From Patescibacteria group bacterium (GTDB taxonomy: Bacteria > Patescibacteriota > Patescibacteriia > UBA9570), in NCBI GenBank assembly GCA_024277435.1, contig JAJRVJ010000017.1, positions 1-47,772 of the forward strand: a stretch of 47,772 bases of DNA. Direction: 5' to 3'. Of the stretch, positions 5,808 to 43,227 are shown piece after piece (positions within the stretch are counted from its first letter, which is position 1; each line of letters starts with the position of its first letter). A model generated the notes under the pieces. It had not been told where the DNA came from. It made no database searches and worked only from the letters and a program-made list of their open reading frames with translations. The position numbers and the translations under genes are program-made.

Positions 5808-7071
5808 TTATCAGTCCTTCTGTATAGCGCTAGTACTATCGTTGGGTGTTATTTTTTTAGCTAATTCCTCGGTTCAGGCAAAGCAGCCAAATAGCTTCAT
5901 TAACCTTGATAAGGTAACGATGGAGCGGGGGTATACAAATGAATTAAATGATCTACGCGTTGGTGTTCCAGCTGGAACATTTTCGAGTGCCGCAGATTTT
6001 TTATTACGCGAAAAAAAGAACTATCCCAATTTGCCAAAATACTTAGAACCAGTTTCTAGTGCGTATGTGTACAGTATTGATATCGCTAATCCTGGTTATA
6101 CGGCAAGTCCAATTTGGTTATCGTATGAGTATGAAGAGGATCCGAAATATCAGCGAAATTTTTATTATTATGACGGTACTTCAGAATGGGTAAAATTACC
6201 TACAAATCTTGATACGGTAAATAATCGTGTACGTGCGGCTTGGCATTTTTCGTATTCAATTATCGGCGTATTTGATGATACGCGATATGATGTTGGCCCA
6301 ATTAAAAAGGATTCTTACAGTGATTTTGGAGGCATTGCATCTACGTCAGCAATTGCCATTGATAACGCTACTGGTGTTGTGCTGTATGAAAAAGATGCTA
6401 ATACAAAGCGCTCCATTGCTTCTCTTACAAAGTTAATGACAGCCTATGTATTACTTCAGAATGATGTAAATTTAGAAAAGGAAATTATCTATTCATCTTC
6501 ATATGATCAAATAGGTGCGCGGCTACGTTTAAATAGTGGAGATATTGTATCAATGGATGATTTAATGTACGCCATGGTGGTTGGCTCAGCTAATAATGCA
6601 GCGTACGCGTTAATGTATGAAGGAGGATATAGTAAAGAGCAGTTTGTGAAGAAGATGAATAAAGCTGCAAAAAATTTAGGCCTCTCAAATACCACATTTG
6701 CCGACCCTTCGGGCTTGGATGCAAACAATCAATCTACTGCAGCGGACTATGCTAAATTTATGCGTTCGATTATGAGTGATCCTAAGATGTTACATTATTC
6801 AACTACAAAGGCGTATGCATTTACTACGCGCAATACTGGTGAGTATCATGATTTTGACAATACTAATGCATTAATGAAAACCAGTGATTTATATATCACT
6901 GGCAGTAAAACAGGATACCTAGATGAAGCGGGGTATTGCTTGGCGTTTAAAGCTAAAGAAGGGGATGATGAGGTGATTACTGTTGTGCTTGGGGCGTCAT
7001 CCGGTTGGGCTCGATTTACAGAGTCTGAGAGGTTAATGCGCTGGGCGTTTACGAATTACTCTTGGCAGTAG
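5797..7071 (+). CDS. Serine-type D-Ala-D-Ala carboxypeptidase (PBP5/DacA-like), probable TTG start
   Basis: SIASLTKLM (SxxK), SANNAAY (SxN), GSKTG (KTG); signal peptide directly after TTG 5797. ORF-track ATG 5767 lies inside the upstream gene. Confidence 0.88.
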   Translation: MKNNYQSFCIALVLSLGVIFLANSSVQAKQPNSFINLDKVTMERGYTNELNDLRVGVPAGTFSSAADFLLREKKNYPNLPKYLEPVSSAYVYSIDIANPGYTASPIWLSYEYEEDPKYQRNFYYYDGTSEWVKLPTNLDTVNNRVRAAWHFSYSIIGVFDDTRYDVGPIKKDSYSDFGGIASTSAIAIDNATGVVLYEKDANTKRSIASLTKLMTAYVLLQNDVNLEKEIIYSSSYDQIGARLRLNSGDIVSMDDLMYAMVVGSANNAAYALMYEGGYSKEQFVKKMNKAAKNLGLSNTTFADPSGLDANNQSTAADYAKFMRSIMSDPKMLHYSTTKAYAFTTRNTGEYHDFDNTNALMKTSDLYITGSKTGYLDEAGYCLAFKAKEGDDEVITVVLGASSGWARFTESERLMRWAFTNYSWQ

Positions 7072-38307: not shown

Positions 38308-38775
38308 ATGAATCAAAAAACCGCTTATGTTAGTGCAGAAGGACTCGAAAAATTACAGCGAGAACTTGAGTATCTAAAAACAACCAAACGTAAAGATATT
38401 GCGAATCGTATCGCATCAGCCAAGGAATTGGGCGATCTATCTGAGAATGCTGAATATAGCGAAGCTAAAGAAGAGCAAGGCTTGGTAGAGGGTAGAATTC
38501 TTGAATTAGAAGATATTCTTCGTAACGTAGAGTTAGTAAAGAAGCCTAAGCAGTCATCAACTGTAGTTATTGGTACAACAGTTGATGTTGTAGATGACTC
38601 AGGCAATGCGCATAATTTCGAAATTGTTGGATCAAATGAAGCTGATCCATCCAATGGGAAGATTTCTAATGAGTCCCCAATTGGTAGCGCTCTACTAGGT
38701 AATAAGGTGGGTGAAACAGTAGAAGTAACTATTCCTAAAGGAGTAGTGAAGTACACTGTTAAGAAAATTTCTTAA
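38308..38775 (+). CDS. greA: Transcription elongation factor GreA
   Basis: YVSAEGLEKLQRELEYLKTTKRKDIANRIASAKELGDLSENAEYSEAKEEQ. Confidence 0.96.
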   Translation: MNQKTAYVSAEGLEKLQRELEYLKTTKRKDIANRIASAKELGDLSENAEYSEAKEEQGLVEGRILELEDILRNVELVKKPKQSSTVVIGTTVDVVDDSGNAHNFEIVGSNEADPSNGKISNESPIGSALLGNKVGETVEVTIPKGVVKYTVKKIS

Positions 38776-38805: not shown

Positions 38806-40905
38806 ATGGGAAGTCAGCAAACTGAACAAGATCTGCGTATAAAAAAATTTAATGCCTACGAAAGTGAAGTGGGTGAGAGTTTTCCTTCGAAAAGTAATCG
38901 TACGCATACTGTACAAAATATATTTGATAACTTTGATGATCTCGCTGATACGAAAGTAGTTATCGATGGCCGCGTACGTTACTGGCGCGATCATGGTAAG
39001 TTGACATTTGCACATATTGAGGATGTAACGGGAAAGATACAAGTGGCGTTATCTGCTCAGGATATGGATGCTGCGGAGTATGAGCGCAGAAAGTTATACG
39101 ACGTTGGTGATATTCTTGAAGTATCAGGTACACCATTTGTTACTCACAAGGGCGAACAATCACTATTAGTAAGTAGTGTGCGATTGCTTTCAAAAGCAAT
39201 TCAGCCGTTACCTGATAAGTGGCATGGAATTCAGGATGAAGAGATGCGTTATCGTAAGCGGTATGTTGACATGCTCATGAATCCAGAATTACGTGAGATG
39301 TTTGTGAAGAAAAGTATTTTTTGGAACTCCATTAGAACATTTTTATTACAAGATGGTTTCTTAGAAGTGGAAACACCTGTGTTGGAATCAACTCCTGGTG
39401 GAGCCGATGCTGAACCATTCGCTACGCATCATAATGCGTTAGACATTGATGTGTATTTGCGTATTTCAATGGGTGAGTTATGGCAGAAGCGTTTAATGGT
39501 TGCTGGCTATGAAAAAACATTTGAAATTGGTAGACAATTTAGAAATGAAGGAATGAGTCCAGAGCATCTGCAGGATTATACGCAAATGGAATTTTATTGG
39601 GCGTACGCAAATTATGATGATGGTATGGATTTGACTGAGCGTTTATATAAACATTGTCTTAAGGAAACATTTGGTACGTTACAATTTTCTGTGCGTGGGT
39701 TTGATATCGATTTAGATAAAAAATGGGAGCATTTAGATTTTACTACAGCGGTAAAAGATGGCACGGGTGTAGATATTGGTACAGCTTCAGTTGAAGAAAT
39801 GCGTGATAAGTGTAAAGAATTAGGTATATCAATACCAGACGTGTTGAGTAAGGGGCGCTTAATGGATACATTGTGGAAGTATTGTCGCAAAAGTGTTGGC
39901 GGTCCAGTATTTTTAGTGAATCATCCAGTAGAGGTATCGCCATTAGCAAAACGCAAGGCTGATGCACCACATTTAGTAGAGCGTTTTCAAATTATCATAG
40001 CTGGAAGTGAATTAGGTAACGGGTATTCGGAATTAAATAATCCATTCGATCAAAAGCAACGTTTTGAGACACAATCTGAATTGCGTGAAGCAGGGGATGC
40101 TGAGGCGCAAATGCATGATCAAGAATTTGTAGAAGCCCTTGAGCATGGCATGCCTCCAACGTGCGGCTTTGGTTTGAGTGAGCGATTATTCTCATTCATG
40201 ATGGATAAGCCCGTGCGCGAGTGTGTAATGTTTCCATTATTGCGTCCTAAGCATGTATCCGGTAGTGAATCTCAATCTGAATCAGTAAATACTATTTTAT
40301 CTGAGGATATAACGCTTCAAGAATTTTCAGCTAATATCTCGCGCGCTGATGCATTGGCGTTTATACAGAAGCATGTGAAGGATGAAAATTTACGACGGCA
40401 TATGATTGCAACAGAAGCATTAATGAAAAAATTAGCAGAGCATTTTGAGGCGAAATCAGCTGAGACATGGGGTATTACAGGATTACTTCATGATGTAGAT
40501 TGGGAAGAGACTGAACCAGAGCAGCACAGTATGGTTGGTGCTGATATGTTAGAAGCAGAGGGCGTGCATGCTGAGGTGGTAAATGCCGTGCGTGAGCATA
40601 ATGCACTACATGGATTAGAGCCAAAAACAATTATGTCTAAATCGTTACAATGTTTAGAACAGTTAACGGGATTGATAATCGCTGCAACTCTGGTACGGCC
40701 AGATAAAGATGTGCGGCAAGTAAAGTTGAAAAGCGTTCGAAAAAAGTTTAAAGATAAATCTTTTGCTAAGGGTGTGAATCGAGATAATATCACTCGTTGT
40801 GATAAATTACTAGGCTTAACAGTAGATGAATCCATTCAACTTTGTTTAGAAGGTATGCAAGCCATGGCGGAAGACCTTGAGCTTGATGGGAGAATGGCAA
40901 ATTAA
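38806..40905 (+). CDS. lysS: Class II lysyl-tRNA synthetase fused to a C-terminal HD-domain phosphohydrolase
   Basis: LysRS: OB fold, YRKRYVDMLMNPE, EVETPVLESTPGGADAEPF, FEIGRQFRNEGMSPEHLQDYTQMEFYWAY, ELGNGYSELNNP, CGFGLSERLFSFM. C-terminal ~190 aa: RRHMIATEALM, TGLLHDVDWEE, VREHN, LTGLIIAATLVRPDK, SFAKGVNRD. Confidence 0.93.
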   Translation: MGSQQTEQDLRIKKFNAYESEVGESFPSKSNRTHTVQNIFDNFDDLADTKVVIDGRVRYWRDHGKLTFAHIEDVTGKIQVALSAQDMDAAEYERRKLYDVGDILEVSGTPFVTHKGEQSLLVSSVRLLSKAIQPLPDKWHGIQDEEMRYRKRYVDMLMNPELREMFVKKSIFWNSIRTFLLQDGFLEVETPVLESTPGGADAEPFATHHNALDIDVYLRISMGELWQKRLMVAGYEKTFEIGRQFRNEGMSPEHLQDYTQMEFYWAYANYDDGMDLTERLYKHCLKETFGTLQFSVRGFDIDLDKKWEHLDFTTAVKDGTGVDIGTASVEEMRDKCKELGISIPDVLSKGRLMDTLWKYCRKSVGGPVFLVNHPVEVSPLAKRKADAPHLVERFQIIIAGSELGNGYSELNNPFDQKQRFETQSELREAGDAEAQMHDQEFVEALEHGMPPTCGFGLSERLFSFMMDKPVRECVMFPLLRPKHVSGSESQSESVNTILSEDITLQEFSANISRADALAFIQKHVKDENLRRHMIATEALMKKLAEHFEAKSAETWGITGLLHDVDWEETEPEQHSMVGADMLEAEGVHAEVVNAVREHNALHGLEPKTIMSKSLQCLEQLTGLIIAATLVRPDKDVRQVKLKSVRKKFKDKSFAKGVNRDNITRCDKLLGLTVDESIQLCLEGMQAMAEDLELDGRMAN

Positions 40906-40920
40906 GTAATAATCAATACT

Positions 40921-42204
40921 ATGTTAGACATCCGTTTTATTAGAGAGTACCAAGAAGAAGTTAAAGAGGCAGCTGATAATAAAGGTATTGAGATTGAGCT
41001 CTCTAAATTACTTGATATTGATGAAGAGCGTCGTAAATTACAGAAACGGATTGATGATTTGAAGTCAGAGCAACACAAAGCCAATGATGAAATTGCCGTT
41101 GCTGACGATGCGGTAAAACAGGATAAAATAAAATTGATGCGAAAGATCGCTCTTGAGGTTAAGGATTTAGACAAAATTCATTCCAAAATAGAGAAGGAGT
41201 TCAAGCAATTATTGTTAACCATTCCAAATATTCCACACGAGCGCGTGCCGGTAGGAAAAACGGAAGACGATAATATTGAGTTAGAAAAAGTTGGTGAGAT
41301 TCCACAGTTTGATTTTGAGCCAAAGGATCATTTAGCGCTTGGTAAGGAATTGGGTTTAATTGATGTAGAGCGCGGTGTAAAAGTTACAGGAAATCGGGGG
41401 TATTATCTTACGGGTGTTGGCGCACAATTAGAAACGGCATTAATGCAGTATGCGTTAGATTTTTTACGCGAGCGTGGCTTTACACAAATGAGCACACCAC
41501 TCATGACCTACGAAGATTATTTTATCGGAACGGGGTATTTTCCATGGGCTCGTGAAGAAACATTTAAGGCTGTTGATAAAGATAAAGAACAACATTTAAT
41601 CGGTTCTTCTGAAATTACCTTATGTGCCTATCATGCCGAGGAAACATTTACAGAGAAAGATCTACCAAAGCGGTATACAGCCTGGACACCGTGTTTTAGA
41701 ACTGAAGTTGGTAGTTATGGTAAAGATACACGTGGGTTGTATCGTGTGCGTCAGTTTAATAAAGTGGAGCAAGTATTATTTTGTGAGCCAAATGAAGAGG
41801 TTGCTATGGAATTATTTGAAGAAATAATGAATAATTCTAAGGATTTTTTAAGCTCTTTGGAATTACCGTATCGAGTGATGGAATTATGCACTGGAGAAAT
41901 GGGTGCGCCACAAAAATATAAACGTGATATTGAAACGTGGATGCCATCGCGAGAGGGTTATGGTGAAACACACTCATGTTCATGGATGGGAGATTTTCAA
42001 GCTCGTCGTTTGAACATTAAAGTAAAATCAGGTGGTAAGAAAGCCCAATATTGTCATACATTAAACAATACATTAGTTGCATCTCCACGTGTACTTATTT
42101 CGCTATTAGAAGTACATCAACAAGCTGATGGTAGCGTTGTACTACCACAGGTACTCCATAAGTACATGAGTGGTTTGGCTAAAATTATACCTCCTACAGA
42201 ATAA
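40921..42204 (+). CDS. serS: Seryl-tRNA synthetase
   Basis: MLDIRFIREYQEEVKEAADNKGIEIELSKLLDIDEERRKLQKRIDDLKSEQHKANDEI coiled coil; FRTEVGSYGKDTRGLYRVRQFNKVEQ; LNNTLVASPRVLISLLEVHQ. Confidence 0.96.
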   Translation: MLDIRFIREYQEEVKEAADNKGIEIELSKLLDIDEERRKLQKRIDDLKSEQHKANDEIAVADDAVKQDKIKLMRKIALEVKDLDKIHSKIEKEFKQLLLTIPNIPHERVPVGKTEDDNIELEKVGEIPQFDFEPKDHLALGKELGLIDVERGVKVTGNRGYYLTGVGAQLETALMQYALDFLRERGFTQMSTPLMTYEDYFIGTGYFPWAREETFKAVDKDKEQHLIGSSEITLCAYHAEETFTEKDLPKRYTAWTPCFRTEVGSYGKDTRGLYRVRQFNKVEQVLFCEPNEEVAMELFEEIMNNSKDFLSSLELPYRVMELCTGEMGAPQKYKRDIETWMPSREGYGETHSCSWMGDFQARRLNIKVKSGGKKAQYCHTLNNTLVASPRVLISLLEVHQQADGSVVLPQVLHKYMSGLAKIIPPTE

Positions 42205-42774
42205 TTAGTAGCCGCGGCGTTTGCGGCGAACTGTTTCAACTGTATAGCTAAGCCAGTACTTAGCGGTAAGTGGCTTATCTTGCGCGTGAACGTACGCTTG
42301 GCTATATCCGCCAAAGCCTTTTTTGAATAAACTAAGGCCTTTCCATGGATGATTTGGTTGAGATTCAATATCGATGATTCCCCAAAAATTATAACGCTGA
42401 CAACCACGACGCTTGGCTTCTTGTATGGCTGTCCATTGTAGTAAGTGAGGTGCAGGAATTTTTGGATATTTACGTATCGATGCGCCTTGGTGGTAAAAGC
42501 CTGAGTATTTGGTATACACCATCATAGCTGCTGCAACTGGCTCGTTATTATATTCTGCTACAAATATACGCATGGAATCTGTTTCCATAAATGTGCGCAA
42601 TTCTGTTTTGAGATATTCAAGAGAGAACGGTGTAAATTTTTGACGCTCTACTGTTGCTTGGTAGAGGTCGTTAAATATCTCTACATCTGATTCGGAGGTA
42701 GAAACACGTATTATTACGCCTTCGCGCTCAGCTTTGCGAATAGAGTGGCGACTGGTTTTACGCATGTTTTTCAT
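42205..42774 (-). pseudogene. C-terminal part of FemAB/FemX-type peptidyltransferase (GNAT fold)
   Basis: MKNMRKTSRHSIRKAEREGVIIR..., YHQGASIRKYPKIPAPHLLQWTAIQEAKRRGCQRYNFWGI. Same frame as the upstream piece, split by TAA 42784-42786. Confidence 0.82.
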
Positions 42775-42783
42775 TAACTCATC

Positions 42784-43227
42784 TTAACTTGGTGTGATAT
42801 CAAGTGTCCAGGCTAATTCTGGGTGTTCATGGATTGGTGCTGGACGGAAGCCGTTATCCTTAAAGATCTGTACATTTTCTGCTGTATCTGGAAGGGTGGG
42901 GGAGAAGCGAATGAAATCGAATTTCTCATCACGTCCGATTTTTTCAACCTGTTGTATAAATGCTGTAACTATAGCTGGGTTATCATTTTTTATAATTGGG
43001 CCATGTGGGCAAAAAAGATACGAGCCACGTCGAGCATTAATTTTTAATAGTAAACATACCCCAACGAGTTCATTGGATGCTGAATATGCTCCTAAGCGGA
43101 TGATGCCGCGTGCACTGTTGAATTTCCCCCATTCCCAGGTATGTAAAAATGTATCAGCCTGTTGAGCGTTAAAAAAATCAGACCATTCTTGCTGATTAGT
43201 TATTGTTTGTATGGTGTAATTATTCAT
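42784..43227 (-). pseudogene. N-terminal part of the same FemAB/FemX-type peptidyltransferase
   Basis: FLHTWEWGKFNSARGIIRLGAYSASNELVGVCLLLKIN...GPIIKN; ends ELAWTLDITPS*-DELMKNMRKT in frame. Confidence 0.8.

Follow-up and report, generated by a model that had tools for sequence, protein, structure and literature searches.

In the window, the whole 47,772-nucleotide stretch of contig JAJRVJ010000017.1 from a Patescibacteria group bacterium, the + strand carries a gene at positions 38806-40905 that encodes a lysyl-tRNA synthetase (LysRS) continued by an HD module (699 aa plus stop, without internal stop). The gene for GreA (38308-38775, + strand) ends 30 bp upstream, and the gene for seryl-tRNA synthetase (serS; 40921-42204, + strand) begins 15 bp downstream, both being recognised by Pfam. 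The LysRS part comprises an N-terminal OB-fold anticodon-binding domain (residues 51-128, positions 38956-39189, PF01336) and the class II catalytic core (residues 144-478, positions 39235-40239, PF00152). The full TIGR00499 model of class II LysRS covers residues 7-482 with 475.2 bits (cut-off 427.6), PRK00484 covers residues 8-482 with 530 bits (cut-off 468), and the Pfam models tRNA-synt_2 and OB-fold match as well. The class II motif residues R246, N247, E248, G249 and R460 are invariant in 39 fused LysRS-HD proteins. The C-terminal HD module, delimited with Pfam, NCBIfam, an alignment and an AlphaFold model, extends from approximately residue 503 to residue 699 (positions 40312-40902). 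It is placed in the HD superfamily by PF01966 (27.9 bits, cut-off 22, residues 531-605) and by TIGR00277 (HDIG; 36.5 bits, cut-off 27.6). An earlier note, made from the letters of this DNA alone, had described one uninterrupted frame of 699 codons with LysRS followed by an HD module, and the Pfam and NCBIfam matches, including that of the C-terminal part to PF01966, bear this description out.

No ATG, GTG or TTG codon occurs between residues 480 and 516, so that the HD part has no obvious start codon from which it could be made separately. The AlphaFold model of the HD module taken singly is all helical, with a mean pLDDT of 94.3. In the full-length model (pTM 0.72), the linker between the two parts (residues 484-498, positions 40255-40299) is predicted to be flexible and is of low confidence (pLDDT <50). 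Because of this pTM and the disordered linker, no contacts between the LysRS and HD domains are claimed.

The three remaining genomes of the family (G001-G003) and four genomes of the order (G004-G007) have the same fusion, as a single open frame of 679-710 aa whose identity is 46-67% along almost its full length. The earlier note had reckoned with an absence of the fusion from all close relatives; the recurrence of the one-frame fusion in these seven genomes disposes of that possibility and indicates that neither an assembly frameshift nor chance is its origin, though in two genomes of the same order (G008 and G009) LysRS lacks the HD module, and no HD match is listed for either. By sequence, two genomes of the window's class correspond to the named records Parcubacteria group bacterium GW2011_GWA2_43_13 and Patescibacteria group bacterium STA_78, which places the window in the CPR/Patescibacteria. 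The genome of the window contains one other HD match, a weak one (E 0.017) whose sequence reads like RNase Y, and no further ones.

The predicted metal site of the HD module and its relation to YqeK

The first putative metal ligand, His532 (positions 40399-40401; all coordinates of the site are on the + strand), corresponds to the first His of YqeK and occurs in all 164 homologues that have a residue there. The HD doublet, His562-Asp563 (40489-40494), is present in 165 of 165 homologues, and the ligands of the second metal, His574 (40525-40527) and His598 (40597-40599), in 161 and 165 of them, respectively. The last acidic ligand is Glu618 (40657-40659), a position occupied by Asp in 116 and by Glu in 49 of the 165 homologues. 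The H...HD...D ligands of the HD superfamily are present (H532, H562, D563 and D/E618), with Glu as the last of them in the window, and G622, F653 and R659 are also invariant among those of the 165 homologues that have the residue. The earlier note had correctly pointed to the Glu in front of LTGL (CLEQLTGL), but its suggestion that metal binding may be altered by this residue was rejected: on the HD tree the Asp/Glu state changes twice, and both states are common to fused (20 Glu, 24 Asp) and unfused proteins. Since the exchange is clade-wide and occurs in fused and unfused homologues alike, it is neither a consequence of the fusion nor a sign of decay.

In the alignment, the full six-ligand set of a two-metal site of the YqeK type is retained. 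These six ligands are diagnostic of a dinuclear HD site (PMC8177086), and the YqeK of S. pyogenes binds two Mg ions with the same ligand set (PMC11857287). In a profile-profile comparison (hhalign), the HD family reached YqeK with a probability of 96.7 and an E value of 3e-10; the six ligands (H, HD, H, H, D) were aligned, the last Asp being Glu in the window. The best PDB matches of the family profile were all YqeK structures, i.e. 8jja (E 7.5e-6), 2ogi, 8wmy, 2o08 and 3ccg. YqeK was reached by the family profile only, and a phmmer search of the PDB with the HD module as a single sequence returned nothing. The YqeK model TIGR00488 did not match the window protein at E values up to 1, nor did it match anything in the window's own genome. 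A Foldseek search of the PDB yielded no match at E values up to 0.001; among its weak matches, PgpH and the HD domain of glycyl-tRNA synthetase (GlyRS) beta ranked above YqeK. Since Foldseek gave no specific match, no structural assignment was drawn from it.

The resemblance to YqeK (COG1713, TIGR00488), a symmetrical Ap4A hydrolase, therefore consists in the same H-HD-H-H-D ligand order, the two-metal site and the homology detectable between profiles. The module differs from YqeK in its last ligand, Glu, in its C-terminal half (K-x-FAxGVNR), which does not align, and in its partner, which is LysRS here and NadD there; compared with S. pyogenes YqeK, it has HDxD where that enzyme has HD plus Lys62. 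As judged from its sequence, the module has a YqeK-type site, yet it stands outside the YqeK family. In the NadD-YqeK fusion of mycoplasmas, YqeK hydrolyses wrong products of NadD (PMC9426524). This fusion is similar to LysRS-HD in that an HD hydrolase, which clears wrong products, is joined to or clustered with an adenylate-transferring enzyme (PMC9426524), whereas the synthetase and the HD family are different ones.

Association of the HD family with LysRS

The HD module has homologues in the class (45 of 148 genomes, E 1e-8) and in an evenly drawn sample of the phylum (144 of 389 genomes, E 1e-10); no member of the family is shown by 63% of the sampled phylum genomes. The flanking DNA of 162 homologues from Patescibacteria (CPR) in all was sorted with profile HMMs. 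Among the 118 homologues from the even phylum sample, 34 were fused to class II LysRS, 28 were encoded directly downstream of lysS, five lay near a LysRS gene (within about 1.2 kb) and eight were linked to class I LysRS. In total, 75 of the 118 were linked to LysRS, a share that may be somewhat too high because weaker matches in the phylum were left out of the flank set; 40 were unlinked within the fetched flanks, and three had too little flank. Every sampled HD frame of at least about 550 aa was a LysRS fusion, and no other fusion partner occurred among the sampled HD frames. The HD tree requires 17 changes of the fused state, and the starred branches force at least 8 of these; with shuffled labels, the mean is 39. 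The mapping of fusions across Patescibacteria, proposed in the earlier note, thus reveals a repeated theme of the CPR that goes beyond a curiosity of one genome. In the unfused pairs, the two genes often share a few bases or have just one in-frame stop between them (L023, L056, L083, L132, L154), and such gene pairs look like the expected intermediates of fusion.

The association extends to class I LysRS. A class I LysRS gene (PF01921, TIGR00467) lies upstream, mostly directly, at eight CPR loci where the HD gene had been classed as alone, and also at L223 and L247. Class II LysRS is missing in eight of nine checked genomes with class I LysRS. One genome (G396) possesses both classes (class II, C3:4756-6057; class I, C9:11027-12121), and its HD gene stands beside the class I copy. 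Family f134 contains one HD clade with strong support whose members continue a class II LysRS in eight genomes and adjoin class I LysRS in three. The two LysRS classes have unrelated folds and share only their reaction and tRNA. Therefore, the linkage of the HD module to both classes indicates that it tracks the function of lysylation. This amounts to a natural experiment, which suggests that the hydrolase serves lysine activation or tRNA-Lys and not one particular synthetase fold. The appending of an HD domain to a synthetase or adenylyltransferase is of a known kind, as NadD-YqeK and GlyRS beta illustrate; new are LysRS as the partner, the intact HD site and a family that follows both LysRS classes.

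When GTDB genomes were scanned with the HD family, 80 loci emerged, about 70 of which are not named as CPR. Among these roughly 70 loci, lysS adjoins the HD gene at L243 only. Since LysRS stands next to the HD gene at most once outside the CPR, the link to LysRS is a CPR trait and not a general one. With about 35-60% identity across the entire domain, the standalone proteins of Clostridia, Caldisericota, Thermodesulfobacteriota, CPR and others are members of this family and carry the same invariant residues as the fused module, which agrees with the resemblance that the earlier note saw to such proteins in Firmicutes and CPR; unlike CPR members, those outside the CPR do not stand beside LysRS. 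They are annotated as 'HD domain-containing protein' or 'HDIG domain-containing metalloprotein'. Among open-licence papers, nothing was found on the LysRS-HD fusion or on COG2316, which may be the number of this family. The linkage to LysRS is a first hint at the function of this widespread HD family, for which no paper was found.

Possible functions of the tethered HD module

The reading favoured here, to which we give an even chance, is that the module is an active two-metal HD phosphohydrolase, a sister of YqeK, which is tethered to LysRS and removes an adenylylated by-product of lysine activation, most likely Ap4A or NpnN. LysRS is the first known maker of Ap4A, which arises by nucleotide attack on lysyl-AMP (PMC7705103). 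According to the proposed mechanism, LysRS forms lysyl-AMP, attack on it by ATP or another nucleotide can yield Ap4A or NpnN, and the YqeK-like HD site, kept close to LysRS through fusion or translational coupling, would cut this by-product and so destroy it at its source. NadD-YqeK is an experimentally tested model for such an arrangement (PMC9426524). The persistence of the fusion in the family and in most of the order, the LysRS linkage of 75 of the 118 homologues, the six ligands and the homology to YqeK speak for this reading. The retained ligands suggest that the site is catalytically active, and the association with LysRS suggests that its substrate would be a by-product of this enzyme. 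That the substrate is Ap4A or NpnN alone is a prediction that we think less likely to hold than not. ApaH and YqeK are nearly absent from the phylum: ApaH scored above its cut-off in none of the 389 genomes and YqeK in four of them, so that a niche exists.

Several observations count against these assignments. The host encodes four Nudix matches and one HIT protein, which might handle Ap4A. About a third of the CPR homologues and nearly all of those outside the CPR are not near LysRS. Most genomes of the phylum sample (63%) show no HD homologue of this kind. Ap4A chemistry does not lead one to expect the link to class I LysRS, unless class I enzymes also make Ap4A, and no Ap4A data for class I LysRS were found. 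Against a YqeK-like activity stand the unmatched TIGR00488, the unaligned C-terminal half and the unspecific Foldseek result. The coupling of alarmone synthesis and destruction, put forward in the earlier note, has gained from the recurrent fusion and operon link, the YqeK-type site and the YqeK profile matches, with Ap4A as a candidate substrate. If the module does clear Ap4A or NpnN, both synthesis and destruction of the alarmone would be combined in one CPR polypeptide, and the question of whether LysRS-derived Ap4A is a signal or waste could be tested with one protein and two point mutants. A wider model, which we hold only tentatively and think doubtful as a whole, describes a self-cleaning CPR LysRS: the HD module follows either class of the synthetase, at times together with B3/4 and DUF2000 domains, and, with ApaH and YqeK missing, would be the main control of Ap4A/Np4A.

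Because B3/4 domains sit on some of the same LysRSs, the main rival to the clearance of Ap4A or NpnN is the proofreading of lysylation, which we regard as unlikely. Here, the module would be one of several editing-type modules attached to CPR LysRS and would hydrolyse wrong aminoacyl-adenylates formed from lysine analogues, or aid the clearance of tRNA-Lys mischarged with them. It is consistent with an HD family that accompanies two LysRS classes alike in reaction and tRNA, not in fold, and the NadD-YqeK fusion is a precedent for the proofreading of products by an HD domain (PMC9426524). The B3/4 domain, of the editing type known from PheRS-beta, occurs on class I LysRS (L113 and L223) and on class II LysRS (L093, L111, L161 and L166), and DUF2000, a relative of Atu0240 (PDB 2gax), on L071, L107 and L111. 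Moreover, a standalone B3/4 protein is a proven canavanyl-tRNA-Arg deacylase (PMC10018355). On the other hand, HD hydrolases usually cut phosphate bonds and not the ester of aminoacyl-tRNA, B3/4 is found in only a minority of the HD-linked LysRSs, and a known reason why lysine alone should need such editing is lacking. Judged by their position on CPR LysRS, B3/4 and DUF2000 may possibly be LysRS editing modules that have not been described. Among the genes concerned are L223:2632-4986 and L093:841-3693, besides those at L113, L161 and L166; the gene at L111:2591-5947 encodes a 1119-aa protein with the order LysRS-HD-B3/4-DUF2000, and another HD gene of this family (6443-6985) comes after it.

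An RNA-directed HD enzyme, which would strip from RNA the Np4 caps added by LysRS or repair tRNA 3' ends, appears improbable. In vitro, LysRS can cap RNA with Np4, and the Ap4A hydrolase ApaH also acts as a decapping enzyme (PMC10148737). Outside the CPR, RNase R often comes immediately after the HD gene, and SmpB and enolase lie nearby (13, 9 and 7 loci, respectively). However, this argument is one of gene neighbourhood, no RNA-binding extension was recognised in the module, and the RNase R link was not seen in the CPR sample. L220 and 12 further GTDB loci of Bacillota and relatives show the HD gene immediately before RNase R (and SmpB), in the vicinity of enolase.

The fusion might also be neutral, a stop codon having been lost between co-transcribed genes, with the HD protein being a general nucleotide cleaner without a functional tie to LysRS. 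The single-stop intermediates, the many unlinked homologues and the lack of the module in G008 and G009 fit such an origin, but fusion or adjacency appears on many branches, the HD module follows LysRS where class I replaces class II (f134), and a partner other than LysRS was not seen, all of which makes neutrality hard to credit. Least of all do we expect a non-catalytic tRNA-binding module: the HD domains of bacterial GlyRS beta, joined to a tRNA synthetase as in LysRS-HD and found among the weak Foldseek matches, do bind the tRNA acceptor stem (PMC9908026), but their catalytic doublet is lost, being Ser-Lys (PMC8464048), whereas His-Asp is kept in all 165 homologues here, fused or not, no sequence match between the two kinds of HD domain was seen, and the same domain also occurs alone, far from LysRS.

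As regards the neighbourhood of the fused gene, the succession of lysS, HD and serS recurs at many CPR loci (L126, L137 and others), and at some loci without a LysRS gene nearby, too, serS is located downstream of the HD gene. Beyond serS, the window contains a FemX-type peptidyltransferase-like gene (42205-43227, - strand) that is interrupted by one in-frame TAA at codon 149; its homologues in related genomes are intact, with about 350-372 aa, and one of them lies near the same lysS locus in G007.
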